A stretch of DNA of 40,045 nt from a virus. Position numbers and translations under genes: made by a program. Position 1 is the stretch's first letter. Each line of letters starts with the position of its first letter. The notes below the pieces were generated by a model. The model was not told the DNA's origin. It saw only the letters and a program-made list of their open reading frames with translations, and ran no database searches. Where the stretch lies: IMG/VR virus record IMGVR_UViG_3300038307_000034, positions 1 through 40,045 of that record; one strand, given 5' to 3'. Shown in pieces: positions 23,322 to 40,045 of this stretch.

Positions 23322-25040
23322 CTAATGGGTCTCAGCCCAACTATCTCCTACGTTAAAATCACCAGCCAGTGGGCATTTAAGCTTAAAGGCAAGCCCTGCG
23401 GCCTCAATACAACTGCAGGCTAACTGTCCGAAACGTTCTGCTTGATCCGCTCGTACCTCCACCTGAAATTCATCATGGATATTACCTACAAACTTATAGT
23501 CTATACCCCATAGTATAGCATATTCATCAAGAATAATCAAGGCTTGTTTCATAACTAATGCCCCTGCTGACTGTAAAAGTGTATTTAAAGCCGAGTGCTC
23601 TGATCTAACAAATACTTTTCTTTTATCCAAGCCCCTGAGGTAACCTTTTCCTGCTGCTATTGATACATTTTCCTTAAGTATCGCCAGTGCTGGTGTACCC
23701 TTAAGGAACTTAGCCTTAAGCTTCCGTCCCATGTTCCTACCGCCACCAGCAATAGAGCCTATTTTCTCGTCACCTGCGCCATACAAATAAGCGTATATGA
23801 AAGTCTTTGCTAAATTACGATTTGCTAATCCAGCAGCTTTCTGGTTAGCCGTATGAATATCACCCTCCAGTATCTCTTTCGTGTACTCAGGATCATTCAT
23901 GAAGTGGGCTAACATTCGCAATTCTAAACCAGAAGCGTCGATACCTACAAGCTTATAATCCTCTGGTACTATCCAACACCCTCTGCACTCAGGACCATAT
24001 AGACTACTGGAGGAGGGCACCTGAGCACAATTAGGCTTACTGTGTGTCATACGTCCAGTAACCGCACCATTAGTGTTAACGTATCCGTGTACCCTCCCAG
24101 TGTCTTCGTCAACAGCCTCTAGCCAACTTCGTACCTGAGCTATGCGCTTCTGTACCAGTAGGTAGGATGCTATCAGTTCAGCCTCAGGGATACCTTTAAC
24201 GTCCTTGAGTACGTCCTCAGACACAATGGCCTGTCCTGTTTCTGTAAATACTTTAGGCTTCCACCCAAAGTGCTGTAGGTATCTCCCTATCTGCCTCCTA
24301 GAGCCTAGGTTGAACACTGGCCAATCAATACGACTGAAGGGGCCACCGACTGTTGTCCAGCGTTCACCTAGAAACTTTAAACCTACTACACTTATCGTAC
24401 CATCTTTTTTAACTTTTGGTGTAACTTCTTTGATAAATGTTGGCAACGGTATGAATACTTTTTGTACGTTTTCTTCAAGATCATATTGTTTTTCCTTTAG
24501 TTCTGCTACTAGGTCACGGGCCTTAGGTTCATCTAAGAGCCACCCGTTCCTGATTTGCTTTTGGATGATACGCTGTACTTTATGCTCAAGAAGTAAGCTT
24601 TCGCTTCCAAAATCAGCAAGCTCATATAGCAATCGTTCGTATACTTGTTCATTAACATCAACGTCTTGCTTACAGTATACCACCATCTCTGGAGTAAGCT
24701 GTGACCAATCCGAATAAGTACCTTTTGCATTCCCTAATACTCCTCCCCAGTAATCTAGGCTGTGTGCTTCTCTTTGTGGGTTGGCTAATCTGGATAGTAC
24801 CAGAGTATCTGTGACCTTACAATGGTCAAACGTAGTACCCAGTAGCCTCTCACACACTGGTATATCATAACCAATGATGTTGTGCCCTATCACCTCCTCA
24901 GCTTTGCTTATGTATTCATTAAAAGTATCAAATGGTTTATAAAAAGTCTTGACTTCTTGAGTATCAATATCCTTAGTAACGATAACCCAAACTACTGTAG
25001 GCTTAAGGCCGTCTGTTTCTATGTCGAATATCAATCTCAT
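23322..25040 (-). CDS. DNA polymerase, family A, with 3'-5' exonuclease
   Basis: 572 residues, shorter than T7 gp5 (704), so the thioredoxin-binding insert is probably missing. Exonuclease residues: FDIETDG (D6, E8), GHNIIGYD (D59) and YCKQDVD (Y122, D126). Polymerase motif A is LVGIDASGLELRML (D368), motif B is NRNLAKTFIYAYLYG (R408, K412, Y416, Y420), and motif C is NIHDEFQV (D523). The residue equivalent to E. coli Pol I 762 is tyrosine (Y416), the state associated with virulent phages. AGGAG lies nine bases before the start. Confidence 0.93.
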   Translation of the reverse strand: MRLIFDIETDGLKPTVVWVIVTKDIDTQEVKTFYKPFDTFNEYISKAEEVIGHNIIGYDIPVCERLLGTTFDHCKVTDTLVLSRLANPQREAHSLDYWGGVLGNAKGTYSDWSQLTPEMVVYCKQDVDVNEQVYERLLYELADFGSESLLLEHKVQRIIQKQIRNGWLLDEPKARDLVAELKEKQYDLEENVQKVFIPLPTFIKEVTPKVKKDGTISVVGLKFLGERWTTVGGPFSRIDWPVFNLGSRRQIGRYLQHFGWKPKVFTETGQAIVSEDVLKDVKGIPEAELIASYLLVQKRIAQVRSWLEAVDEDTGRVHGYVNTNGAVTGRMTHSKPNCAQVPSSSSLYGPECRGCWIVPEDYKLVGIDASGLELRMLAHFMNDPEYTKEILEGDIHTANQKAAGLANRNLAKTFIYAYLYGAGDEKIGSIAGGGRNMGRKLKAKFLKGTPALAILKENVSIAAGKGYLRGLDKRKVFVRSEHSALNTLLQSAGALVMKQALIILDEYAILWGIDYKFVGNIHDEFQVEVRADQAERFGQLACSCIEAAGLAFKLKCPLAGDFNVGDSWAETH

Positions 25041-25545: not shown

Positions 25546-27177
25546 TTAAAAGTCCTCTATATCATTAGCCTTCTTAATTTCAGGTGCCTGAGTAGCCACT
25601 AAACGGCTGGTGTTGTTCTCATAATAGAGCCAGCCAGCTACCCCTGTACGTCCTGTACGTCTACACTTAACTAGTTGCACCTGAGTACAGTTACGTGCGT
25701 AATCATCGTCAGACATCTTATCACGACTAAGTAGGATAGTGTTGAAGGCTATTTGGTTGATTGAACCTGAGCCCTTCAAATCATACTCACCTACGTCATG
25801 TGCATTCTTAGCATTAGGCTTACGCATATGACTAACAATGATAATACTTACTCCAGTATTCTTTGCAAGCTTTAGACATTTATCCATAAAGCCATCAATG
25901 ACACCATTGTCATTAGAAGTCACGGCTGCCTGTAGCGGATCTAAGATAATTATATCACAGTCTAAGCCTTTCACCAAGTACTGCATCTTAGCGAATAGTT
26001 CATCAGCTTCTAGAGCGCCTTGGTGATCCAAGATATGTAGTTTATCACTCTGGGCCAGCTCGTTGTACTTCTCATGGTACAGATTGTAATCCCTGTCCTT
26101 CTGTTCTATGTCGCTTATATTGGTTCCCATATAGACAGATAGAAGCTTCTCCACTGTCTCACCTACGTCAGCCTCTAAGAACACACAACCTATTTTCTTA
26201 GAGCTCTCCACGTACATACCGTGTACTAGGTTGTACACCATAGTAGACTTACCAATACTTGTCAAGGCACCAATGACTGTCACCTCTCCCGCTGCAATAC
26301 CCCCATTCATCATGGCATTTAGTGAACCAAAACTAGCAGGTAGCGGTGTTACCTCTTCTGTACCACGCTTTAGAAACTTATCCCATACTGACTCATCACC
26401 TAAACTTACCACACCCTCAGGTTTGAATGCCTTAGCATCCCACCAGCATCGGGTAAACTCTCGTACCTTATTGGCCTTGAGCATATCACCAGCGTCTTTT
26501 AGAGGCAGGGTACATACCTTAGCCTTACGAGGGCTAAAGAGCGGTAGAACAGCTTCTGAGGCCTTTATACCTGCCTCGTCTGAATCAAAACATATGATAA
26601 CATTATCAAAAGTCTCTAGGTATTCTAGCGAGGCTTTAATGTCCTTGGCTGCTGCCGCTGCTCCTGACCTGATAGACACTGCTGGCCATTTACCGTCAAA
26701 CATCTCGTTAACAGCCATGGCGTCTATCTCGCCTTCTGTTATGGTTATGTATTTACCTCCCTCCGCAAATATCTGTTGACCAAATAGACCTGCTTGTGTT
26801 AGGTCTCCCGTACTGTAGAATTGTTTATCCTTGACGCCTCGCACCTTAGTACCTACGACTTTAGTTCTATCCTCTAGACTATGGTATGGGTAGTGGTGTT
26901 TATTAATCACCCCTGAGGCGTCATATTCTACTGTTACGCCATATCGTTTACATACGTCCATGGATATACGTCTATCCTGTAGGGCTGCTATTGTGCCTGT
27001 CATTTCCAGTGGCCTCGCTCTTATGTTGGTTGCTGTTGCTGTTGTACCATCACCGTGTATATAGTGCTGGCATTTGAAACATACTGCATGGTTATCCGAA
27101 TACCTCGCTAAGGCATCACTGGAGCCGCACGAGGGGCATGGTTCATGCTTAACAAATGTACTTTCTACTTGTATCAT
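25546..27177 (-). CDS. DNA primase-helicase (T7 gp4-like)
   Basis: 543 residues. N-terminal zinc motif CPSC...CFKC (C14, C17, C33, C36). TOPRIM primase residues lie in TEGEID (E148, E150) and CFDSDEAG (D198, D200). RecA-like helicase Walker A is GALTSIGKS (303-311), Walker B is IIILDPL (D413), and ELT/HMRKPN-type motifs follow. The protein ends NDIEDF: acidic with terminal phenylalanine, as in T7 gp4, where that tail binds the polymerase. It unwinds DNA and makes lagging-strand primers. It is encoded directly downstream of the SSB gene. Confidence 0.93.
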   Translation of the reverse strand: MIQVESTFVKHEPCPSCGSSDALARYSDNHAVCFKCQHYIHGDGTTATATNIRARPLEMTGTIAALQDRRISMDVCKRYGVTVEYDASGVINKHHYPYHSLEDRTKVVGTKVRGVKDKQFYSTGDLTQAGLFGQQIFAEGGKYITITEGEIDAMAVNEMFDGKWPAVSIRSGAAAAAKDIKASLEYLETFDNVIICFDSDEAGIKASEAVLPLFSPRKAKVCTLPLKDAGDMLKANKVREFTRCWWDAKAFKPEGVVSLGDESVWDKFLKRGTEEVTPLPASFGSLNAMMNGGIAAGEVTVIGALTSIGKSTMVYNLVHGMYVESSKKIGCVFLEADVGETVEKLLSVYMGTNISDIEQKDRDYNLYHEKYNELAQSDKLHILDHQGALEADELFAKMQYLVKGLDCDIIILDPLQAAVTSNDNGVIDGFMDKCLKLAKNTGVSIIIVSHMRKPNAKNAHDVGEYDLKGSGSINQIAFNTILLSRDKMSDDDYARNCTQVQLVKCRRTGRTGVAGWLYYENNTSRLVATQAPEIKKANDIEDF

Positions 27178-27249: not shown

Positions 27250-27612
27250 CTAGAAGTCGTCATCAGACTGATTAGCTAGCTCAAGTACTCGGATCTTATC
27301 CAGATAAGGCGTAATACCATGCACTGGGTGCGGTTGACCTGTTGAGTACTGAATACGGATCAAAGAACCTCGAGTGAGTCGTGCCGTTTCAGGCTCCCCA
27401 TCTAAGTCTACCACATCAACAGAAAACTTACTGGCAAACTTTCGTTGCTTGTTACCTTCGTACTCGCGCAGCTTAACGCCTTGATCTTCCATCTTGGACG
27501 CCTCCGCATCGTCTAGTGTGACAACCACCGAGTATTTACCCGTTGACTGACCTTGATACATCTCATGCTCTTCTAGATTGACAAAAGCGACTTTACCTGT
27601 AATTACTGACAT
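27250..27612 (-). CDS. ssDNA-binding protein (T7 gp2.5-like)
   Basis: 120 residues, beta-rich and OB-fold-like (ITGKVAFVNLEEHEMYQG...KYSVVVTL ... GSLIRIQYS...PYLDKIRVLEL), ending NQSDDDF. The acidic tail with a final aromatic residue is the hallmark of T7 gp2.5 and contacts the helicase and polymerase. It is shorter than gp2.5 (232). AAGGA lies seven bases before the ATG, and a consensus promoter lies about 140 bases upstream. The family assignment is from tail, position and size. Confidence 0.75.
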   Translation of the reverse strand: MSVITGKVAFVNLEEHEMYQGQSTGKYSVVVTLDDAEASKMEDQGVKLREYEGNKQRKFASKFSVDVVDLDGEPETARLTRGSLIRIQYSTGQPHPVHGITPYLDKIRVLELANQSDDDF

Positions 27613-27782: not shown

Positions 27783-28024
27783 GCGTTATTTGCTATCATT
27801 TCATATTTATAGTCTTCTACCTCACCTTCTAGTTTTTTCTCTAGCCACCTAGGTAGCCTCTCGTAATGCTTAAGGCCGCTCTCGGCCTCGTTGATATAAT
27901 AACAATAGTAGTCATTAATAACTACCTCTGCATCTTGGTCGATATAGTAGTCAACCTCAAAGTTAATTAGCATCTCTTCTAAAGTGCCTACGCCTATCTC
28001 TAGGTCAAAAGTTGCTTGTGCCAT
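27779..28024 (-). CDS. Hypothetical acidic protein
   Basis: 81 residues, rich in Glu, Asp and Tyr (FEVDYYIDQDAEVVINDYYCYYI ... LPRWLEKKLEGEVEDYKYEM). It overlaps the start-side neighbour by 20 bases, and its stop lies inside the -35 hexamer of the following promoter. It could act as an acidic, DNA-mimic-like early protein, but that is speculation. No family is recognised. Confidence 0.7.
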   Translation of the reverse strand: MAQATFDLEIGVGTLEEMLINFEVDYYIDQDAEVVINDYYCYYINEAESGLKHYERLPRWLEKKLEGEVEDYKYEMIANNA

Positions 28025-28196
28025 AATTAATACCCTCTTCTAAGTCAAAATCACCCGCATCAATAACGACATTATATGCCGCCTCATTACTGATTGTCAA
28101 GCATTTACCACATAAATCTAAAAATTCTTCAGTTTCCTTTTCCTTACGGCTTAACTCATAGTCGTTTAGGATCATATTACACGCTTTGCATCTCAT
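28005..28196 (-). CDS. Small zinc-ribbon protein
   Basis: 63 residues. MRCKACNMILNDYEL and LDLCGKCLT give a CxxC...CxxC zinc ribbon (C3, C6, C29, C32), followed by an acidic tail. Very similar short ribbons (MRCKACN..L.D.E...K...T.EFLDLC..C) are frequent in podovirus early regions. The function is unknown; it may bind nucleic acid or a host protein. Confidence 0.75.
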   Translation of the reverse strand: MRCKACNMILNDYELSRKEKETEEFLDLCGKCLTISNEAAYNVVIDAGDFDLEEGINYGTSNF

Positions 28197-28207
28197 TGTA
28201 TACCACC

Positions 28208-28333
28208 TTATTTAGTTAATAATGTTAATAATACTGCCACACCTGCGGCTGTTGCAGCTACTAGGCTCATAATTACCGCTGTATATACAACAGCTAAGCC
28301 TATTAGGTAAACTATATCATATAAATAGCTCAT
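28208..28333 (-). CDS. Small membrane protein
   Basis: 41 residues, nearly all hydrophobic (MSYLYDIVYLIGLAVVYTAV ... SLVAATAAGVAVLLTLLTK), with one long or two short transmembrane helices. Its ATG overlaps the previous stop as ATGA, and GGAG lies upstream, so translation is likely coupled. It could alter the host membrane, for example in superinfection exclusion. No family is recognised. Confidence 0.6.
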   Translation of the reverse strand: MSYLYDIVYLIGLAVVYTAVIMSLVAATAAGVAVLLTLLTK

Positions 28334-28620
28334 AATGCAAACCCGCTCCATTCTTCATATGTATAGTAATCTAAAGGGTAGCCATATGCTAGGCCTCTGG
28401 ACACGATAGGCGTATACGTGTGTATAATGTTGCCCATAACGTCTTCATTCCCCGCCAGTACCTTACCCTTAGTTACTAAATCACCCAATAGGGGAGCTAA
28501 TATACGCCTTGATGTACCTGTTACCTTGGCAAGGCTGCCCAGTGTAATGTATGGTTCACTATAGTTCAAATCTAACAGCACGTTATATAATTCTCTCTCT
28601 GCTTCTGTGTGATTGTGCAT
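28330..28620 (-). CDS. Putative winged-helix DNA-binding protein
   Basis: 96 residues. Residues 22-55 (YITLGSLAKVTGTSRRILAPLLGDLVTKGKVLAG) show the helix-turn-helix plus wing pattern typical of small regulators. It is the only evident candidate transcription factor among the early genes and could act on the dyad-rich intergenic region or the two sigma70 promoters. The target is unknown. Confidence 0.6.
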   Translation of the reverse strand: MHNHTEAERELYNVLLDLNYSEPYITLGSLAKVTGTSRRILAPLLGDLVTKGKVLAGNEDVMGNIIHTYTPIVSRGLAYGYPLDYYTYEEWSGFAL

Positions 28621-28623
28621 AAT

Positions 28624-28830
28624 TTATACCACCTTGGTTATAATATCGTCTTTTAGTGTTACTGTAGCAAAAAACTCACGGCCTATACCCGTAACGTGTG
28701 GCCTATTGGCCCCTACTATGGAGCCATTGCTTAAGTATTCAGGCCCGAATAGGCTAGTCTCTATAAAGTTTAAAGGCTGGCCGATATGTTCCCTTAAGTG
28801 CTTTTTGCTTTTGTAATTAAATATCATCAT
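28624..28830 (-). CDS. Conserved hypothetical phage protein
   Basis: 68 residues (MMIFNYKSKKHLREHIGQPLNFIETSLFGPEYLSNG ... GANRPHVTGIGREFFATVTLKDDII). This 'YKSKK.L...G.PL..IETS.FGPEY...G...GANRP...G..REFFA.V' pattern is a recurrent small protein of phage early regions. It starts four bases upstream of the next gene's end. The function is unknown. Confidence 0.75.
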   Translation of the reverse strand: MMIFNYKSKKHLREHIGQPLNFIETSLFGPEYLSNGSIVGANRPHVTGIGREFFATVTLKDDIITKVV

Positions 28831-29047: not shown

Positions 29048-29191
29048 TATTATCACCTCCAAAAGTTTTCTCTAGTGCCTTGTTCATTTCTGTTATTTCG
29101 TCCGTAGTTATTAGCTTATAAAGCCAATGACTAAACCATACCACGTATAAAATGACTATGGCAAGTAAAGTATATCCATATATATATTCAT
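29037..29191 (-). pseudogene. Small membrane protein gene split by a TA-repeat frameshift
   Basis: ATG 29191 overlaps the previous stop as TAATG, the coupling pattern used throughout this operon, but its frame stops after 11 codons. One frame over, the sequence continues as GYTLLAIVILYVVWFSHWLY ... EITEMNKALEKTFGGDNNVN and ends at a TAA overlapping the next ATG. The change of frame lies in a run of TA dinucleotides (29180-29187). Removing one TA unit would give a single ORF of about 50 residues with one transmembrane helix. It may be a natural slip, a phase-variable site or an assembly error. Confidence 0.55.
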
Positions 29192-29568
29192 TATTCTACG
29201 CCTCCTGTGCGTTTACGTTTAACTTCACCAATGATATAAATATAGTCACTCAATGACACATTACTAGGGCTATGTGCTTTAGGTCGTGATTGACACACAT
29301 TACATAATACTATGCACCTATTCTCTTTATTCTTAAACTTAGCAAAGTAGTCTAAAGCCTCCTGATACGTGGGTAACGTATGCCAGCCACTAGCATATGT
29401 AGTCTTTTGTGTGCCATCTTTAGCGTATGGCCGTACTTGAGCCTTTACCCATTGGTCCGTCGGTATGGACCTAGAGCCCTCGTTACCATGGAATAAGGTT
29501 TTATAGTGACTAGGCGAAGGGCTTAGCTCCATGATCTTGTAAGCTATTGTTTGGTCGTGTTTATTCAT
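29191..29568 (-). CDS. Hypothetical protein
   Basis: 125 residues (MNKHDQTIAYKIMELSPSPSHYKTLFHG ... LPTYQEALDYFAKFKNKENRCIVLCNVCQSRPKAHSPSNVSLSDYIYIIGEVKRKRTGG). A beta-alpha layout with a CNVC pair near residue 90 and a basic end. Its start shares bases with the stop of the GP88-like gene, so the two are coupled. No family is recognised. Confidence 0.7.
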   Translation of the reverse strand: MNKHDQTIAYKIMELSPSPSHYKTLFHGNEGSRSIPTDQWVKAQVRPYAKDGTQKTTYASGWHTLPTYQEALDYFAKFKNKENRCIVLCNVCQSRPKAHSPSNVSLSDYIYIIGEVKRKRTGGVE

Positions 29569-30305
29569 TATGCTACTTCTTTTAGACTAATTAGATTAGA
29601 CTTAAAACGTTTAGAGCGTGAACCATGTACAGTAATAGCTATGTTTCGCTTAGTGCCATCACACAAGCCACAATCAGCGCATTGAAGGCCTTGTGCGTCT
29701 GCTAAGCATTCTAGCTCATCTTCTGCCAGTGTATCACCTTCTAAGGCCACACGAAACGTATGAGCGCCTAGCTTTTGATACTTTAATGCTTGTTTTGGTG
29801 TATCTGCCGAGACCATACAGAGGCCTAGGTAACGATTATCAAAAGCCTTGTGCGTTACTTGGTGCGTGTAGCCTGTGTGGCCTTTAGCCATGGCCGCTAT
29901 TGAAGCTAAGACCTCATAAGGTACAGCCGCTGGATCACCATAAGCGCCAAGGCGAAGCATACGACCTGCCAGCTTATCCGCTAGACCACTTAGATCATTT
30001 GAGTATCTACCACGCTTAAAAGCCTTGTATACTGCTAGTGGGGCTTGACCAATATTAACATAACACGCGCCGCCTACCGATTGCTTGTGAGGGCATGATC
30101 CACAAATACTACCATCTAGTTTAGCTTGGCTTATGGCTACTGGATTATCATCGGTGCGAATGATCCACACTTGCGCCATATTGCCCGTTTTGCGGTTACT
30201 AGTCTTTAGCGTCAAGATGGCCGCGATAGGTGCGCCGTCGAGTACTGAGGGGCCTTGGTATAGTGTATAGCCTAGCGTTGCAGGTGCTTTCTTTAATGTT
30301 TGCAT
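29568..30305 (-). CDS. GP88-like cysteine-rich protein
   Basis: 245 residues from ATG 30305, six bases after GGAG; the frame is open four codons further, but the same GGAGTACACC leader precedes the ATG of the gene at 30744. Motifs: GSICGSCPHK, GGACYVNIGQAPLAVYKAFKRGRY, LRLGAYGDPAAVPYEVL, GLCMVSAD and CADCGLCDGTKRNI. These clustered cysteines match the phage 'gene product 88' family (PF17338-like), whose role is unknown. The cysteines could bind zinc or an Fe-S cluster. Confidence 0.7.
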   Translation of the reverse strand: MQTLKKAPATLGYTLYQGPSVLDGAPIAAILTLKTSNRKTGNMAQVWIIRTDDNPVAISQAKLDGSICGSCPHKQSVGGACYVNIGQAPLAVYKAFKRGRYSNDLSGLADKLAGRMLRLGAYGDPAAVPYEVLASIAAMAKGHTGYTHQVTHKAFDNRYLGLCMVSADTPKQALKYQKLGAHTFRVALEGDTLAEDELECLADAQGLQCADCGLCDGTKRNIAITVHGSRSKRFKSNLISLKEVA

Positions 30306-30376
30306 GGTGTACTCCATTATGGTTGGTTTAACGAATGGCCTAGTAATGGGCCATTGAGTAAAACAACTACCGCCAG

Positions 30377-30790: not shown

Positions 30791-30997
30791 TTATAAGGCA
30801 AACTCGGCTAGTAATTCTGACATGTCATAAGCCATTTCCTCTTTGAAATCATCATAGCGAGATTGTAACCAGTCAGCACCATGTTCGTTGCCTGTGCGCT
30901 CAAACTCGGCCTCAAGCTTGCTAATCTGTGCCTGTGTCGCCATAACTAGGTCGCTAGACTCGTTAAACCATGCTTGCTTTACTTGTGAATATGTCAT
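30791..30997 (-). CDS. First leftward gene, small acidic protein
   Basis: 68 residues from ATG 30997 (MTYSQVKQAWFNESSDLVMATQAQISKLEAEFERTGNEHG...). AGGAG lies nine bases upstream; the frame is open further, but without a ribosome site. It is helical and acidic (SRYDDFKEEMAYDMSELLAEFAL). It is the gene nearest the putative origin and so probably the earliest transcribed leftward. No clear promoter is visible for it. Confidence 0.65.
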   Translation of the reverse strand: MTYSQVKQAWFNESSDLVMATQAQISKLEAEFERTGNEHGADWLQSRYDDFKEEMAYDMSELLAEFAL

Positions 30998-31077
30998 GCT
31001 ATGTGCTCCTGTGGCCTGTGGCCTGTTGTATTGGTGACACAAGTATTAATGCAATACCTGTGCCAACAATGGCAAAC

Positions 31078-31203
31078 CTAGGCGTAGCAAGGCCTGTGGA
31101 CGATATGGGCACATTACAGGCATAAGGCTTATGCACCAGTATAGTGCACAAATATGACGTTATATTGACACAATTAACTGATAGCTAGGCGTAGCAAGGC
31201 CTG
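31078..31203. repeat. Pair of 19-base direct repeats
   Basis: CTAGGCGTAGCAAGGCCTG occurs at 31078-31096 and again at 31185-31203, 107 bases apart. The shorter core CGTAGCAAG recurs near 31285. Confidence 0.8.
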
Positions 31204-31247
31204 CAGACGTGCACCAATATAGTGCTAGGGTGCACCAATGTAGTGCA
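31132..31247. repeat. Three iteron-like dyads TGCACCARTRTAGTGC
   Basis: Copies lie at 31132-31148, 31210-31225 and 31231-31247. Each is an imperfect palindrome with TGCAC and GTGCA arms. The last two start 21 bases apart, two helical turns. On the minus strand each contains a TATACT/TATATT/TACATT element, so a promoter-operator role for the leftward genes is also possible. Confidence 0.75.
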
Positions 31248-31434
31248 CAGTATATGACACTAGATGCTATAAAGGAACGCACGCACGTAGCAAGTATTAT
31301 GCCAATTATTTACCTATTTACATATGCAATACTTGTGCCAATATCACAGAATCAACGTAAATACTTTGGGCATATGACGGCCTAGGTTTTACACTGGCAT
31401 ACGTTAGACGAGCTTATAGACAGCTTAAGGAGCC

Positions 31435-31792
31435 TGTGGATAACTTATGTGACTTATGTACAGGTTATCCACAGGTTCTGGTGTGTCCTAGGGCACCCAC
31501 CTAGGCATTCACTTGTCAACTTATGAAACAAATGAGCCTTGAGTAGTCACGCTTGCTTAAGTGTCTCGAGTATGCTCAAGTCCTTAGGTGTCAATAGTTT
31601 GACAGTAGGACTTAGGTGTCAATAGTTTGACACATGATAAGTTATCCACAGGCTACCTAAGGACTTGTGGATAACCTGTGGACACTTCGGTAGCCTGTGG
31701 ATAACCTGTGGATAACTTAAGGACTTGAGTTATCCACAGGGCCTTGAGGACTTGTGGATAACCTGTGGACACTTCCGTGTGCCTGTGGATAA
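31435..31792. promoter_or_regulatory. Cluster of nine perfect DnaA boxes
   Basis: TTATCCACA on the plus strand at 31465-31473, 31642-31650 and 31730-31738. Its complement TGTGGATAA lies at 31435-31443, 31666-31674, 31696-31704, 31707-31715, 31753-31761 and 31784-31792. Seven fall within 151 bases. A 9-mer on either strand is expected about 0.003 times in 358 bases of random sequence. This is the binding consensus of the bacterial initiator DnaA. Confidence 0.9.
31583..31632. repeat. Tandem 22-base repeat containing the dyad TGTCAATAGTTTGACA
   Basis: Two identical 22-base units, 31583-31604 and 31611-31632, with a period of 28. Each holds a dyad with arms TGTCAA and TTGACA (31589-31604 and 31617-31632). 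It resembles a dimeric repressor or initiator operator and sits between the DnaA boxes. Confidence 0.8.
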
Positions 31793-31841
31793 CTTAATGG
31801 GGAGGGGCCGTGGAGTATTCTTGGGATAACTGTGGTAGGCA

Positions 31842-31909
31842 CCTAAGTTTACAAAAGAGTGATTCTGCTTCTGAAGAAAACCTAAGTTTACAAAAGAGTG
31901 ATTCTGCTT
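31842..31909. repeat. Two 29-base direct repeats beside the DnaA boxes
   Basis: Units 31842-31870 and 31881-31909 are identical, with a period of 39. They begin CCTAAGTTTACAAAAG. They lie in AT-rich DNA immediately after the last DnaA boxes, where the unwinding element of an origin would be expected. Confidence 0.75.
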
Positions 31910-32056
31910 TAGTAAGTAACAAAAGATTACTGTAGGTTACATAAGATAACCCTATGATATACATGGGAATGATAATAGTTCTCATTAACATCACAAGGGT
32001 ATTCATGGGGCTTATGGACATGACCTTAAGTATACTGAAGAAACTGTAGAAACTAC

Positions 32057-32085
32057 TTGACTTTCAGGCTCAGATGTGGTATAAT
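32057..32085 (+). promoter_or_regulatory. Sigma70 promoter for terminase and late genes
   Basis: TTGACT (32057-32062) and TATAAT (32080-32085) with a 17-base spacer. The -10 lies in a perfect 13-base palindrome, GGTATAATATACC (32078-32090). It would give a leader of about 235 bases before the small terminase gene. Confidence 0.88.
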
Positions 32086-32134
32086 ATACCTATAGTATGC
32101 TTTAGCAGCTTAACGCGGCCCTAAGGCACTTACA

Positions 32135-32214
32135 GTTTATTCTTTTAGTATAAACATAAAGTAACTACTTTAGACACTTTAGTAGTTACTTTTAGTTATA
32201 ATTAAAGAATAAAC
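32135..32214. repeat. Nested inverted repeats upstream of the terminase
   Basis: Outer arms GTTTATTCTTT (32135-32145) and AAAGAATAAAC (32204-32214). Inner arms AAAGTAACTACT (32158-32169) and AGTAGTTACTTT (32181-32192) around an 11-base loop. All are perfect. The segment 32172-32200 repeats 27687-27715. Confidence 0.8.
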
Positions 32215-32223
32215 ATAAAGACA

Positions 32224-32239
32224 CTTAAGTATACTTAAG
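32224..32239. repeat. Perfect 16-base palindrome CTTAAGTATACTTAAG
   Basis: It is fully self-complementary. A copy with one mismatch lies at 32025-32040, so the two flank the late promoter. An operator role is plausible. Confidence 0.75.
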
Positions 32240-32328
32240 GCGACACCTATGTCTCTTAACAGAGATTGTCAGTCTTAAGTAACCCCACCCCCCCGTAGCA
32301 ATCTCAACACAGAGGCAATTGCATAGAT

Positions 32329-32751
32329 ATGTCAGAACAAGAAGAACCTAAAGAACCTAAGCTTACCAAGTCAGGCAGGGTTGACCGTAGAACAGTACCT
32401 AAGAAGCGTACAGGTAGGCCACCTAAGGCGGCTCTTAAGAAGCCTAAGGGTATTATTGGTCGTCCTAAAGGTGATGCTGCTATCATCAACGAGTACAAAG
32501 CTAGGATGCTTGCGTCCCCTAAGTCAGCCAAAGTACTTGAGGCTATCTTTAATGCTGCCTTGAACGATGATCATAAGAACCAAGCATCAGCATGGAAACT
32601 TGTCATGGACCGTGTAGCCCCTGTAGCAGCCTTTGAGAAGGATATCACCAAAGGTAGTGCTAAGTCAGCTATACAGATTAATATCACTGGTGTAGGTCAG
32701 ACAGAGGTCTCCAATGAAGACATAAGTGATGCGGAGTACACTGTCGTATGA
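32329..32751 (+). CDS. Putative small terminase subunit
   Basis: 140 residues directly upstream of, and overlapping by four bases, the large terminase gene. The N-terminal third is basic and carries two AT-hook-like motifs (GRPPK near 32 and GRPKG near 46). The middle is helical (IINEYKARMLASPKSAKVLEAIFNAALNDDHKNQASAWKLVMDRVAPVAAFEK). It probably recognises the packaging site. The identification rests on position, size and DNA-binding features. Confidence 0.75.
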   Translation: MSEQEEPKEPKLTKSGRVDRRTVPKKRTGRPPKAALKKPKGIIGRPKGDAAIINEYKARMLASPKSAKVLEAIFNAALNDDHKNQASAWKLVMDRVAPVAAFEKDITKGSAKSAIQINITGVGQTEVSNEDISDAEYTVV

Positions 32752-34019
32752 GTGATCTACAGATTGAACTTCTGGATTGGCAAAAGAAAGTATGGGCAGA
32801 CCCTACACGCTTCAGGGTAGTGGCTGCAGGAAGACGTTGTGGTAAGTCACGACTAGCTGCATGGCTTCTAATTGTCAATGCCCTTCAAGCTGATAAACCA
32901 AACTCCCATGTATTCTATGTTGCACCTACCCAAGGGCAGGCCAGAGACATCATGTGGGGCCTATTGATAGAATTAGGTCACCCAGTAATACGCAGCTCCC
33001 ATATCAACAACATGCAAATCACCCTGATCAATGGTGCAACTATCTCACTTAAAGGTGCTGATAGACCCGATACGATGCGTGGTGTTAGCCTTAAGTTTCT
33101 ATGTCTAGACGAATATGCAGATATGAAACCAGAGGTATTTGAGGAGATCCTACGACCAGCCCTAGCTGACCAAAAGGGTTCCTGTCTCTTCATAGGTACA
33201 CCCAAGGGACGTAATCACTTCTATGACTTATACAAGTATGCAGAGCTATCTGAGGATGACCCTACGTTCTCTGCATGGCATTTCACCTCCTACGACAATG
33301 AAACCTTAGATCCTGAAGAGATCAACATTGCTAAAAAGAGTATGTCAACCCACGCCTTCCAACAAGAGTTCATGGCTTCTTTCAAGAACCAAGGCTCTGA
33401 GATGTTTAAAGAAGAGTGGTTACAGACGGGCACAAAACCTACTGGTGATGGTGATTATTATATTGCTATTGACCTCGCTGGTTTCCAAGATGTTTCTAAG
33501 AAGAAAGGAAACACAAGCCGACTAGACAACACCTCTATGGCTGTAGTTTATGTCAATGAAGATGGCTGGTTTGTTGAGAATATCATATATGGGCGTTGGA
33601 CTCTTGACGAGACAGCACGTAAGATATTCCAAGCTGTAAAGGATTACAGACCACTCTCTGTAGGTATAGAGAAAGGTATTGCCAAACAAGCTGTAATGTC
33701 ACCCCTCATGGACATGATGAAACGTCAGTCCTTCTTCTTCAGGGTGGAGGAACTTACACACGGTAACCAGAAGAAGACTGATAGGATAATGTGGGCACTT
33801 CAAGGACGCTTTGAGCATGGTCTAATAACCATCAACAAGAAGTCTAAAGAATGGCACTCACGCTTCTGTGATGAATTATTCCAGTTCCCAGACCCCTTAA
33901 CACATGATGACTTAATAGACTCGCTGGCTTATATAGACCAGTTAGCCAAGGTAGCCTATATAGGTAACTTTGAAGAACATGACGAATTTGAAACCATAGA
34001 CTTAATCAGTGGATACTAA
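32748..34019 (+). CDS. terL: Large terminase subunit
   Basis: 423 residues. ATPase: Walker A AAGRRCGKS (26-34), Walker B FLCLDEYAD (D121, E122) and coupling motif FIGTPKGRNHF. Nuclease: IAIDLAGF (D242), GIEKG (E308) and THDDLIDSLAY (D387, D391). The enzyme pumps DNA into the procapsid and cuts the concatemer. It is shorter than T7 gp19 (586) but has all domains. The portal gene follows two bases later. Confidence 0.93.
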   Translation: MSDLQIELLDWQKKVWADPTRFRVVAAGRRCGKSRLAAWLLIVNALQADKPNSHVFYVAPTQGQARDIMWGLLIELGHPVIRSSHINNMQITLINGATISLKGADRPDTMRGVSLKFLCLDEYADMKPEVFEEILRPALADQKGSCLFIGTPKGRNHFYDLYKYAELSEDDPTFSAWHFTSYDNETLDPEEINIAKKSMSTHAFQQEFMASFKNQGSEMFKEEWLQTGTKPTGDGDYYIAIDLAGFQDVSKKKGNTSRLDNTSMAVVYVNEDGWFVENIIYGRWTLDETARKIFQAVKDYRPLSVGIEKGIAKQAVMSPLMDMMKRQSFFFRVEELTHGNQKKTDRIMWALQGRFEHGLITINKKSKEWHSRFCDELFQFPDPLTHDDLIDSLAYIDQLAKVAYIGNFEEHDEFETIDLISGY

Positions 34020-34021
34020 AC

Positions 34022-36049
34022 ATGCAACTAAATGACCATAACGAGAGTACAGACCCTATTATTATCGAACAGTCCCTCATAGACTTCGTTATGACCAAGG
34101 TGAACGATTGGGGTGATTACTACGAGAATAACTATGCCAAGAAGCATGAAGAGTATTATCGCCTCTGGCGGGGTATTTGGAATGCCTCAGATGCTACACG
34201 TAAGGCAGAGAGATCACAGATCATTGCCCCTGCCCTTCAGCAAGCCGTAGAGTCTAACGTAGCTGAGATTGAAGAGGCTACCTTTGGTCGTGGTAAGTAC
34301 TTTGACATTAAAGACAATCTAGGTGACTCAGAGACTGAGGACATTCAGTTCCTACGTAACAAGCTACATGAGGACTTTGAACGTACACGTATCCGCAGGG
34401 ACATGAGTGAGTGCTTGATCAACGCAGCGGTCTACGGTAATGGTATTGCTGAGGTAGTTTTAGAAGAGATCAACGAGATGAAGCCTGCGACCGAGAAGGT
34501 CATGGGTGGTGCTATGGAGGCTGTGGGTGTTAATATCTCCAAGCGTACCGTGGTTCGCCTACGTCCCATCCTGCCTCAGAACTTCCGTATCGACCCAGTG
34601 GCCACCAATGTAGAAGAAGCTTTGGGCGTAGCTGTAGACGAGTTTGTGTCAGCCCATACGGTAGAGATCCTACAAGAACAAGGTGTTTATAAAGACGCTT
34701 ACCTAGGCAATGCCTCAGAAGATTTCAACCTAGAGCCTGATAGTGAGCTCACAGTTACTCAAGATGATAAGGTACGGCTTACCAAGTATTATGGTCTAGT
34801 CCCTACACATCTCCTTGAACAAGAACTTGATTATGATCTTGATGAAGACGAGAAGGAAGGTTACTACACAGAAGCTGTAGTTATCATTGGTAACGAAGGT
34901 ATCATGCTTAAAGCTGAACCTAGTCCTTACATGATGAAAGACCGTCCTATCGTAGCGTTCCCATGGGACGTTGTACCCAGCCGCTTCTATGGTCGTGGTG
35001 TATGTGAGAAGGGATACAACAGCCAGAAGGCTCTAGATGCAGAGCTACGCGCACGTATAGACGCTCTGGCCCTTACAGTACACCCAATGCTTGCTATGGA
35101 CGCTACACGCATCCCTAGAGGCACTAAGCCAGAGATTCGTGCTGGTAAGTTATTATTGACTAACGGTGATCCTAAAGAGATCATTAACCCATTCAACTTT
35201 GGTAATGTTAGTCAGATTACGTTTGCTCAGGCTCAGGCACTACAGTCCATGGTTCAACAGTCTACAGGGGCTGTGGACTCTTCTGGTGTTGGTGGTCAAA
35301 TTAACGGTGAAGCCACTGCTGCTGGCATTTCGATGTCTCTGGGCGCTATTATCAAGCGACATAAGCGCACTTTGATTAACTTCCAAGAAGCCTTCCTCAT
35401 TCCATTCGTATCGAAGGCAGCTTGGCGTTATATGCAGTATGAGCCTGAGCTCTACCCAGTATCTGACTATAACTTCTTAGCTACTAGCTCTCTGGGTATT
35501 ATTGCTCGTGAGTACGAAGTATCTCAGTTGGTACAGTTATTGCAGACCATGGGCAAGGATACACCTTATTATCCTATCATGCTCAAGTCTATCGTAGACA
35601 ACATGAACGTGTCTAACCGTGAGGAACTTATCGGTCTTATTGATAAGGCAGCACAGCCTACACCTGAGCAGCAGAAGGCTCAAGAAGAGACTCGACAAGC
35701 TGAATTAGCTTTCCAAGCCTCTCAAACTTCCGCACTTAACTCACAAGCTGAAGAATCCAACATGAGGGCACATAAGTTACATGAGGAAGCTCTAGCAGTA
35801 CCTAAAGAGACTGAAATAGCACGTATTAAGGCTATTACAACGAATATACAAGCAGGTGATAAGGACGATAAAGAGTTTGAACGCCGTATGCGGATATCGG
35901 AAAGCGTACTGAAGGAGCGTGAGGTGATTCTTAAGGAACGCAAAGAAGAACGTGACTCTAAACCTAACGAAGCTGAAAACGCCTTAATACAGCGCCTACA
36001 GGCTCCTGTACAGGGTGTACCTGTGGAGTCCACTACTCAGGAGCTATAA
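34022..36049 (+). CDS. Portal protein (right-end allele, complete)
   Basis: 675 residues directly after the terminase gene. Typical podovirus portal parts are visible: an N-terminal ring region (YYRLWRGIWNASDATRKAERSQIIAPALQQAVESNVAEIEEATFGRGKYFDI), a clip and stem region (DRPIVAFPWDVVPSRFYGRGVCEKGYNSQKALDAEL), and the long C-terminal charged helix (about 555-675), the barrel. It forms the dodecamer through which DNA enters and leaves. The last 108 residues differ from the partial copy at 2-475. Confidence 0.9.
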   Translation: MQLNDHNESTDPIIIEQSLIDFVMTKVNDWGDYYENNYAKKHEEYYRLWRGIWNASDATRKAERSQIIAPALQQAVESNVAEIEEATFGRGKYFDIKDNLGDSETEDIQFLRNKLHEDFERTRIRRDMSECLINAAVYGNGIAEVVLEEINEMKPATEKVMGGAMEAVGVNISKRTVVRLRPILPQNFRIDPVATNVEEALGVAVDEFVSAHTVEILQEQGVYKDAYLGNASEDFNLEPDSELTVTQDDKVRLTKYYGLVPTHLLEQELDYDLDEDEKEGYYTEAVVIIGNEGIMLKAEPSPYMMKDRPIVAFPWDVVPSRFYGRGVCEKGYNSQKALDAELRARIDALALTVHPMLAMDATRIPRGTKPEIRAGKLLLTNGDPKEIINPFNFGNVSQITFAQAQALQSMVQQSTGAVDSSGVGGQINGEATAAGISMSLGAIIKRHKRTLINFQEAFLIPFVSKAAWRYMQYEPELYPVSDYNFLATSSLGIIAREYEVSQLVQLLQTMGKDTPYYPIMLKSIVDNMNVSNREELIGLIDKAAQPTPEQQKAQEETRQAELAFQASQTSALNSQAEESNMRAHKLHEEALAVPKETEIARIKAITTNIQAGDKDDKEFERRMRISESVLKEREVILKERKEERDSKPNEAENALIQRLQAPVQGVPVESTTQEL

Positions 36050-36052
36050 GAG

Positions 36053-36598
36053 ATGATAAGTTCTGATGTTAAATTAGTTGCCATCTTTGATAATCTTGAA
36101 GCTCAGATAAAAGCCTTACGTCTTAAACATGGCAAAGATGGTGCTAGAGGCGCTGATGGTATAAGTATCAAAGGTGAGCAAGGTGATAGAGGACTTGATG
36201 GTGTAGGCCATAAAGGTGACAAAGGTGACAGGGGGTACTCAGGTACTGATGGCATCGACGGAGCTGATGGTATCTCAATCGTTGATGCTACTGTTGACTT
36301 TGATAATCATTTAGTCATTAAGTTTTCTGATGGTAATGAAGTAGATGCTGGAGAGATCCAAGGTGGCTCAGGTGGTGACCAATACTTCCGAAGTGGTAGT
36401 AAGGTTAATATAACTAATGGCGCTTCCTCTGAACATCTTCTCTACAAAAGTGAAACTATTAGTGTTGATAAAGTCTTAGATGATAATACCCTATATCTTA
36501 CTGGTTCAGACTTTATTATTGAGGATGGTATTACATTAACTATACCTCAGAGCAGTGAGCTTACAGTAGAAACTTGGGCCGCACAAAGGCAATTATAG
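36053..36598 (+). CDS. Collagen-like tail/adhesin protein 1
   Basis: 181 residues. The N terminus is helical, then a collagen-type Gly-X-Y region spans about 26-75 (GKDGARGADG ... GEQGDRGLDG ... GDKGDRGYSG), then a C-terminal beta domain. The Gly-X-Y part is expected to trimerise into a rod. It begins four bases after the portal stop, an unusual site for fibre genes, and is absent from the variant at the left end of the window. Confidence 0.75.
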   Translation: MISSDVKLVAIFDNLEAQIKALRLKHGKDGARGADGISIKGEQGDRGLDGVGHKGDKGDRGYSGTDGIDGADGISIVDATVDFDNHLVIKFSDGNEVDAGEIQGGSGGDQYFRSGSKVNITNGASSEHLLYKSETISVDKVLDDNTLYLTGSDFIIEDGITLTIPQSSELTVETWAAQRQL

Positions 36599-36607
36599 GA
36601 ATTAAAC

Positions 36608-37816
36608 ATGAGTATAAAACTAAAGAGCACTAGCGGCTCGATCACTTTATCACCTGAAGATGGCTCAGGTGACATTTCCCTTACTATACCTAGGGCTGGC
36701 TTTGCGGCAGGTAATGCTGGCCCTGCAGGAGCTGATGGGGCCGATGGAGCTACAGGAGCTGCAGGAGCTACAGGAGCTACAGGAGCCGATGGAGCCGATG
36801 GAGCTACAGGAGCTACAGGAGCTACAGGAGCTGCAGGAGCCGATGGAGCCGATGGAGCTACAGGAGCTGCAGGAGCCGATGGAGCCGATGGAGCTACAGG
36901 AGCTACAGGAGCTGCAGGAGCCGATGGAGCCGATGGAGCTACAGGAGCTGCAGGAGCCGATGGAGCTACAGGAGCTACAGGAGCTACAGGAGCTACAGGA
37001 GCTACAGGAGCTGCAGGAGCCGATGGAGCCGATGGAACCAACGGAACACCCTTACCCACGCAAACTGGCAATTCAGGTAAATACTTAACTACAAACGGTT
37101 CCACCGCTTCATGGGGAACAGTGGCCAGTGGTGGCGTTAACATCACCTCAAATGCTACAGCACCCTCAAGCCCAGCAGTGGGGGATCAGTGGTATGACAC
37201 AGCAAACGGTGTGCTTTATGTGCGTGTAACCGACGGCACAGACGCCGCTTGGTTAGACATATCTAGTGCGAATGGTACGGCGGCAGCGGCAGCGGCTGGA
37301 GGTGGTGGAGCTTGGGAAGTGATTTCAAGCACCACTGTTAGTAGTTCAGTCACTAGCATGTCTATGACGCTATCAGGGTATGACGATTACATTATTTCGT
37401 TCACAAATGTTGAGGGGAACCAGAGTTCTTACGATCTTAGTCGCTTATATTTTTCAACTGATAATGGTGCAACCTTTTCATCTAATATCCGCTATGTCTA
37501 CAAGCGCAATTATTCCATGAATACAAATACCCATGTGGCAAGTAGTCTCTCGGCAGGTTATGTACTGATGGGCGAGCACTATGCAAGTGGTGTTACCACT
37601 GGCTTTATCACACTCCGAAATACTGCGGCAATGAACCCTAAAACCGGTACGTTTAATAATGTAAGTTCAAGCTCTACCACAGATTATTGGTTTCAAGGTG
37701 CATTCGTTATACAAGAGTCATCTGTAATAGATGTAGTTAAGTTCGCTTTAGAAGGAAATAATAATGCCTCAATTACAGGCGGCACTTTCACCCTCTACGG
37801 CATTAAGAACTCATAG
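36608..37816 (+). CDS. Collagen-like tail fibre protein 2
   Basis: 402 residues. Residues 36-144 are about 36 uninterrupted Gly-X-Y triplets, nearly all GAT, GAD or GAA. A glycine-rich hinge follows ([13 protein letters not shown]), then a C-terminal domain ([22 protein letters not shown] ... [12 protein letters not shown]) that recurs in the next two genes. Likely a trimeric fibre with a receptor-binding tip. AGGA precedes the ATG. Confidence 0.8.
36725..37036 (+). repeat. Collagen-encoding DNA repeat array
   Basis: Tandem near-identical 9-base and 18-base units (GGAGCTACA, GGAGCCGAT, GGAGCTGCA in different orders). Such an array can gain or lose units by recombination or slippage, so fibre length probably varies. 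The codon choice is far more uniform than in neighbouring genes. Confidence 0.9.
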
Positions 37817-39609: not shown

Positions 39610-39759
39610 ATGGTATCCCACAGAGACTTACAGAATGTAGTTGAGCAGATTAATCAGAGCTATGCTACCTTATTACAGAAGGTGGAAGTATTGGAGGCTC
39701 AAGTATTGAGTTTATCAGTACCTACCACAAAAACAACCAAAAGTAAAGAAAAATCTTGA
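39610..39759 (+). CDS. Small coiled-coil protein (right allele)
   Basis: 49 residues starting MVSHRDLQNVVEQINQSYAT and ending TTKTTKSKEKS, homologous to 351-512. GGAG is upstream. Here it follows the adhesin cassette and does not overlap the portal gene. The TGA stop again lies in the next -35 hexamer. Confidence 0.75.
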   Translation: MVSHRDLQNVVEQINQSYATLLQKVEVLEAQVLSLSVPTTKTTKSKEKS

Positions 39760-39784
39760 CTTTTATGTGAAATTATGTTATAAT
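39756..39784 (+). promoter_or_regulatory. Sigma70 promoter for head genes (right copy)
   Basis: TTGACT (39756-39761) and TATAAT (39779-39784), 17-base spacer, the same as 509-537 apart from one spacer base. Confidence 0.85.
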
Positions 39785-39795
39785 AGGTAGTATAT

Positions 39796-40045
39796 ATGAC
39801 AGACAATGAATTAGAACTGTACTTCAGGAACATGAACGAGCTATTCCGTACTAAAGGATGGTTATCATTACTTGAAGAGATGCGGCTCAATATCCCTCTC
39901 ATTAACTCCGTAGAGAAGACCAAAGACGAGGCTGACCTAAACTTCCGTAAGGGTCAGTTGAACATCATAGGTACTTTACTTAATCTAGAAGAGACTACAC
40001 GTATTGGACAAGAGGCCTCACAAGAGACCCCTGAGGACGATTACG
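39796..40045 (+). CDS. Head-region protein, truncated by window end (right copy)
   Basis: The first 83 codons of the same gene as 549-809. It differs from that copy at only a few bases, and the coding sequence is cut by the end of the window. It marks the wrap-around of the contig. Confidence 0.85.
   Translation, partial: MTDNELELYFRNMNELFRTKGWLSLLEEMRLNIPLINSVEKTKDEADLNFRKGQLNIIGTLLNLEETTRIGQEASQETPEDDY

Follow-up and report, generated by a model that had tools for sequence, protein, structure and literature searches.

Consensus DnaA-box arrays replaced by other repeats at a G-rich tract in near-identical phages with a T7-type replisome

Why would a phage that encodes its own T7-type replisome carry a cluster of perfect sites for the bacterial initiator DnaA? 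The question is raised by the genome of a marine phage belonging to an uncultured podovirus family, a complete IMG/VR record of 40,045 bp, which was analysed over its whole length and is referred to here as the window. To our knowledge, the way in which DNA synthesis starts in T7-supergroup phages without an RNA polymerase of their own is unsettled.

Gene layout and elements of the divergent region

The stretch from 31043 to 32328 separates a leftward replication module from a rightward terminase-portal module. It contains no credible gene, as an earlier note on this DNA had described; the ORF listed at 31794-32021 was rejected, since it is interrupted by a stop in a relative (L113), has no family match and is not conserved. 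The T7-like replisome recognised in the same note is borne out by matches for five components of the leftward module, comprising an exonuclease and an endonuclease (family matches) and the first three proteins listed below.

23322-25040, minus strand: PolA-type DNA polymerase (family match)
25546-27177, minus strand: T7-type primase-helicase (family match)
27250-27612, minus strand: candidate gp2.5-like ssDNA-binding protein (weak match)
28330-28620, minus strand: 96-aa winged-helix protein, conserved in boxed and box-free members of the close clade alike
32329-32751, plus strand: probable small terminase subunit (TerS), assigned by position; opens the rightward module
32748-34019, plus strand: large terminase subunit (TerL; family match)

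No large ORF gave an RNA polymerase family match in Pfam or PHROGs, in agreement with the earlier note, and the phage RNA polymerase that would act with its promoter at a T7-type transcription-primed origin is thus absent from the family matches of the ORFs scanned. A genome search with PF00940 also returned no match, but its positive controls gave none either. The largest ORF without assignment (2959-5844) is missing or divergent in relatives having the same core genes, and appears to behave unlike a polymerase. Two other minus-strand products are a 63-aa zinc-ribbon-like protein with four invariant cysteines (28005-28196), present in 52 relatives, and a strongly conserved cysteine-rich protein (29568-30317; phrog_2554, weak DUF7227), which adjoins the divergent region and is missing from some relatives.

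A second record (G010), 98-99% identical to the window over most of the aligned length and carrying the same nine boxes, starts at 36.86 kb of the window and runs across its ends, so that both assemblies are circularly permuted. Internal repeats near the record ends (1-270, 492-790 and 39739-40018 of the window) probably explain why assemblies break there. The GC skew reaches its minimum near 30 kb, where gene direction changes, and was rejected as independent evidence for an origin because the two are confounded. A host search via the terminase among genome contigs produced no usable assignment, its matches being confined to small MAG contigs and distant sequences.

Exact copies of TTATCCACA occur nine times in the divergent region and nowhere else in the 40,045 bp, against an expectation of 0.30 +/- 0.52 and a maximum of 2 in 40 kb from dinucleotide shuffles; the nine exact sites, seven of them in 151 bases, that the earlier note had counted are therefore real. 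The looser motif TTWTNCACA adds just three scattered sites. The dyads, iterons and AT-rich repeats that had been reported alongside correspond to 22-bp copies, a 39-bp tandem repeat and 19-bp TGCACC..GTGCA dyads, and the region is organised as follows.

31435-31443, minus strand: outlying exact DnaA box
31465-31473, plus strand: outlying exact DnaA box
31525-31550, no strand: family dyad GTGACT-N14-AGTCAC in decayed form, its right arm AGTCAC (31545-31550) intact and its left arm degenerate
31583-31632, no strand: two 22-bp copies with the dyad GTGTCAATAGTTTGACA
31642-31792 (151 bp), both strands: main array of seven exact TTATCCACA, at 31642 (plus), 31666 (minus), 31696 (minus), 31707 (minus), 31730 (plus), 31753 (minus) and 31784 (minus)
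31799-31813, plus strand: G-rich tract GGGGAGGGGCCGTGG, a constant joint at which homology of boxed and box-free near-identical phages starts
31841-31918, plus strand: AT-rich 39-bp tandem direct repeat
31938-32237, no strand: least stable 300 bp genome-wide, a candidate unwinding element
32057-32085, plus strand: sigma-70 promoter with extended -10 (TTGACT-17-TATAAT, 11/12), directed toward TerS/TerL and conserved in aligned close relatives
32224-32239, no strand: palindrome CTTAAGTATACTTAAG (near copy at 32025-32040), conserved in aligned close relatives

The candidate unwinding element includes the 100 bp of lowest stability in the genome (32137-32236). The region accordingly combines a cluster of high-affinity DnaA boxes, found as arrays in relatives as well, with an adjoining GC-rich joint and AT-rich unwinding element, both of which are features of bacterial oriC regions.

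Architecture of the arrays and their exchange at the G-rich tract

The earlier note had counted absence of the cluster from close relatives among the findings that would refute its proposal; in fact, arrays of 4-11 exact boxes occupy the same divergent position in relatives, amounting to 33 distinct arrays, and the leftmost box of the window (31435-31443) is retained in most close relatives. When the terminase-family loci that extend 1.5 kb or more upstream of TerL (96 in total) are compared, 34 display at least four exact boxes in 400 bp and 47 display none, counts which are not a frequency because the set includes loci found by their box pattern.

Box spacing in the 33 non-redundant arrays peaks at 11 and 22 bp with a helical phasing of 10.5-11 bp (Rayleigh z 59 for a 10.5-bp period and 50 for 11 bp, against 24 for 10 bp and 2-8 for 11.5-15 bp), and the boxes are mostly arranged head-to-tail, the two strands bearing 162 and 43 of them; since related arrays share descent, these phasing and strand figures are non-independent draws. 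Adjacent boxes on the same strand are spaced by 11 (43 cases), 12 (10) or 22 bp (19), placing head-to-tail boxes with gaps of about 2 bp on one face of the helix. This spacing matches that of DnaA-oligomerising regions, which are laid out head-to-tail with 2-bp gaps (PMC10316083). Conservation reaches past the 9-mer, with G before and GG after, and the resulting flank consensus GTTATCCACAGG is that of the E. coli oriC box R1, whose sequence was confirmed in 5389 E. coli genomes.

Of the 33 arrays, 28 are followed, no more than 40 nt past the final box, by a 15-mer with a GC content of 80% or higher, as against 2.6% of background windows; in most arrays the stability of the whole locus (100-bp segments) is lowest within 450 bp on the far side of this tract. 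The definition of a basal unwinding system (BUS) requires three or more DnaA-trios no further than 16 nt from a box (PMC8287927); no DnaA-trios were found beside exact boxes on either strand of the six related arrays scanned (L113, L122, L014, L028, L054 and L023), none of which thus qualifies as a BUS. Read toward the AT-rich DNA, the final box in the window and in most relatives is TGTGGATAA, an orientation opposite to that of E. coli R1, although box directions vary between origins (PMC10316083). The lack of trios in these arrays and a nearest box that points away from the AT-rich DNA both argue against a plain copy of oriC.

The array can be replaced as a unit. Locus L090 has no box, yet it is 97.8% identical to the window from 31880 to 36804, encodes a 100% identical primase-helicase, and becomes homologous to the window at the G-tract (98.6% over 31799-31870), its slot being filled by GTGACT-N14-AGTCAC dyads instead of boxes. 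Two further pairs behave in the same way: L046 (seven boxes) and L048 (none) are 96.9% identical from the G-tract rightward, and L028 (ten boxes) and L027 (none) 93.0%; directly left of the tract, the members of each pair are unrelated in sequence. The swap of a DnaA array against an unrelated repeat array therefore recurs in three independent pairs of phages, all known from metagenomic assemblies, that are 93-98% identical downstream. Locus L009 has an array shortened relative to the window, in which three boxes are exact and a fourth is a near match. On a TerL tree limited to loci that were not chosen for their boxes (L192 and up were omitted, having been found through the box pattern and being biased toward boxes), the box state requires at least 12 changes, all forced by well-supported branches.

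The G-tract is kept in 31 of 40 box-free relatives, often together with the stability minimum, and several of these relatives hold other repeat families in the slot, of the AACTCAAG, GTCTAACTGTTG and GTGCCAAC types. As judged from these alignments, the core is constant and the array is an exchangeable cassette. That phages so nearly identical have repeatedly traded a DnaA array for other arrays at a single joint is the novel element of this locus, and no publication on such an exchange was found in searches of open-licence papers.

The 26-bp dyad GTGACT-N14-AGTCAC has a fixed spacing and a variable centre and is located about 0.8-1.5 kb upstream of TerL. One to three copies are present in most phages of the close clade (L090, L098, L015, L017, L101, L123 and boxed relatives), with box-free members tending toward more.

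The binder of the boxes and possible roles of the region

No phage-encoded DnaA was found by a search that detected its positive controls, and among the loci compared, several of them partial, no gene is present in all boxed relatives and absent from all box-free ones; a cognate initiator gene that follows its sites, as in iteron/Rep plasmids, was likewise not found in these loci. These results point to host DnaA, by which the boxes are probably bound. Window ORFs 30791-31042, 29191-29568 and 28624-28830 were rejected as box-tracking genes because their distribution does not follow the boxes. The winged-helix protein at 28330-28620 (AlphaFold mean pLDDT 94.7; best PDB matches mostly winged-helix regulators, none below E 0.001) is a candidate regulator or initiator, and a candidate binder of the GTGACT dyad, not of the boxes.

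The constant core, consisting of the G-rich tract, the least stable DNA of the locus and, in the close clade, the sigma-70 promoter, would most likely serve as a replication start and module switch, with an exchangeable protein-binding cassette abutting the G-tract that here consists of helically phased consensus DnaA boxes. Host DnaA may oligomerise on this array and, together with host transcription from 32057-32085, help to open the AT-rich DNA, on which the phage primase-helicase and polymerase would load; the transcription may supply either the primer or the opening. We give a little less than even credence to the core being a replication start at which a host DnaA oligomer assists opening in this manner.

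The earlier note had proposed that host DnaA opens the phage origin. The form of the array, which is compatible with DnaA molecules binding cooperatively next to readily melting DNA, speaks for that proposal, but the array is dispensable: near-identical phages with the same replisome (L090, L048 and L027) lack boxes, so DnaA is not obligatory. On the best reading, host DnaA is one among several interchangeable opening or regulatory factors, and the comparisons suggest that the host initiator serves the phage as a replaceable component of its start region. That virulent phages with the same T7-type replisome possess a start region with exchangeable initiator cassettes, which recombine at a fixed G-rich joint and alternate between host DnaA and other site-specific factors, is possible, though rather doubtful in this full form. 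Because the matched phage pairs differ mainly in the cassette, the role of host DnaA could be tested by allele comparison. Should DnaA act as an initiator or regulator that can be interchanged, phage replication would be tied to the cell-cycle state of the host, and the modular evolution of a phage start region would be demonstrated.

The cassette could instead be a transcription switch, at which host DnaA or the binder of an alternative array regulates divergent early and late promoters while replication starts elsewhere. It is located between divergent modules, with a strong sigma-70 promoter about 270 bp to its right, and TTGACA directly follows the G-tract in L027 and L048; the exchange of operator-like arrays over a kept core is a usual route by which regulatory regions diversify, and DnaA is a known transcription factor (PMC8203912). 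However, 4 to 11 phased boxes of top affinity are many for a regulator, a conserved leftward promoter was not identified at the array, and the genome-wide stability minimum is left unexplained, so that we consider a switch unlikely, if still a serious competitor.

A DnaA sponge, which would titrate DnaA and stop the host from re-initiating, was the second proposal of the earlier note. Its boxes are consensus sites whose copy number grows with phage replication, the array can be absent or reduced (three exact boxes in L009), and plasmid-borne boxes are known to titrate DnaA in E. coli (PMC5835720). The E. coli chromosome, however, contains 307 consensus DnaA boxes (PMC5835720), against which nine sites per phage genome would have little effect until many copies exist. 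Moreover, titration would not require the array to be joined to a G-tract at a fixed point, and the exonuclease and endonuclease homologues may destroy the host DNA anyway. The G-tract and the AT-rich minimum beside the array are more easily reconciled with an origin or a regulatory element than with a sponge, which we regard as improbable. Both features are nevertheless present in most box-free relatives too, so that an action of the array on them does not follow from their closeness.

A signal for DNA entry or packaging, at which DnaA bound to the DNA would halt its entry for a time or mark an end, on the model put forward for the T5 injection stop signal, is highly improbable. The T5 signal is described as containing repeats and DnaA boxes (PMC13250531), and arrays of the T7-like phages P483, A7 and phiEap-1 lie in a gene-free stretch beside packaging or earliest genes; but the T5-like phage AKFV33 has only three exact boxes, and the different break points of the window and its 98-99% identical record make a fixed entering end not evident. 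Finally, a site of a phage-encoded protein that merely resembles a DnaA box would fit the conservation beyond the 9-mer, but with the same flanks at E. coli R1 and no phage gene tracking the boxes in the loci compared, its chance is very slim.

Comparison with known DnaA-box systems

Bacterial origins (the B. subtilis BUS, E. coli and T. maritima) resemble the phage arrays in their clusters of consensus boxes, mostly in one direction with 2-bp gaps, and in the GC-rich joint and unstable AT-rich DNA adjoining them. They differ in that no DnaA-trios were found in the phage arrays scanned, in that the nearest box of the phage array faces away from the AT-rich side, and in that the phage replisome is T7-type and the phage array exchangeable. 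In the DnaA-box plus iteron origins of plasmids and P1, repeated sites and DnaA boxes adjoin an AT-rich element, as they do here, but no Rep gene was recognised in the phage, and DnaA boxes are here for the most part alternatives to the other arrays. A plasmid search with the array gave one weak match. The datA and DARS loci of E. coli resemble the phage arrays as clustered DnaA boxes that could alter DnaA availability; unlike the phage arrays, they are host-chromosomal, with few boxes, an IHF site and no unwinding element.

The earlier note had called both of its explanations unusual; DnaA boxes do have a precedent in a lytic phage, the T5 injection stop signal (PMC13250531). This signal likewise combines DnaA boxes and repeats in a gene-free region, but it is tied to two-step entry at a fixed end, whereas the array of the window is located between divergent modules in permuted records. 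The enterobacterial T7-like Studiervirinae P483 (L311), A7 (L318) and phiEap-1 (L319) have arrays of four or five exact, phased, one-directional boxes in a gene-free stretch. Unlike the window phage, their group has its own RNA polymerase (annotated in phiEap-1), and the array is near packaging or earliest genes. Vibrio phage BD1 has four boxes and an annotated RNA polymerase. Since T7-like phages that encode an RNA polymerase, and that presumably replicate like T7, carry arrays, and since relatives without the polymerase lack them, the missing polymerase does not account for the boxes as the earlier note had supposed.

The precedents of T5, P483 and phiEap-1 suggest that DnaA-box arrays are more widespread in lytic phages than usually noted. 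Pseudomonas phage PseuGes_254 has a predicted origin that is related in kind (PMC11512268). Litunavirus DL64, Photobacterium TEMp-D1 and Lactococcus WRP3, with one or two exact boxes each, were rejected as array carriers, and the cultured polymerase relatives CRP-403, HTVC104P, HTVC031P and Slicky01 displayed no box clusters in the stretches examined. Five or six exact boxes in 500 bp were present on seven IMG/VR contigs (L214, L223, L245, L246, L259, L265 and L266), whose examined stretch has no match to the terminase of the window.
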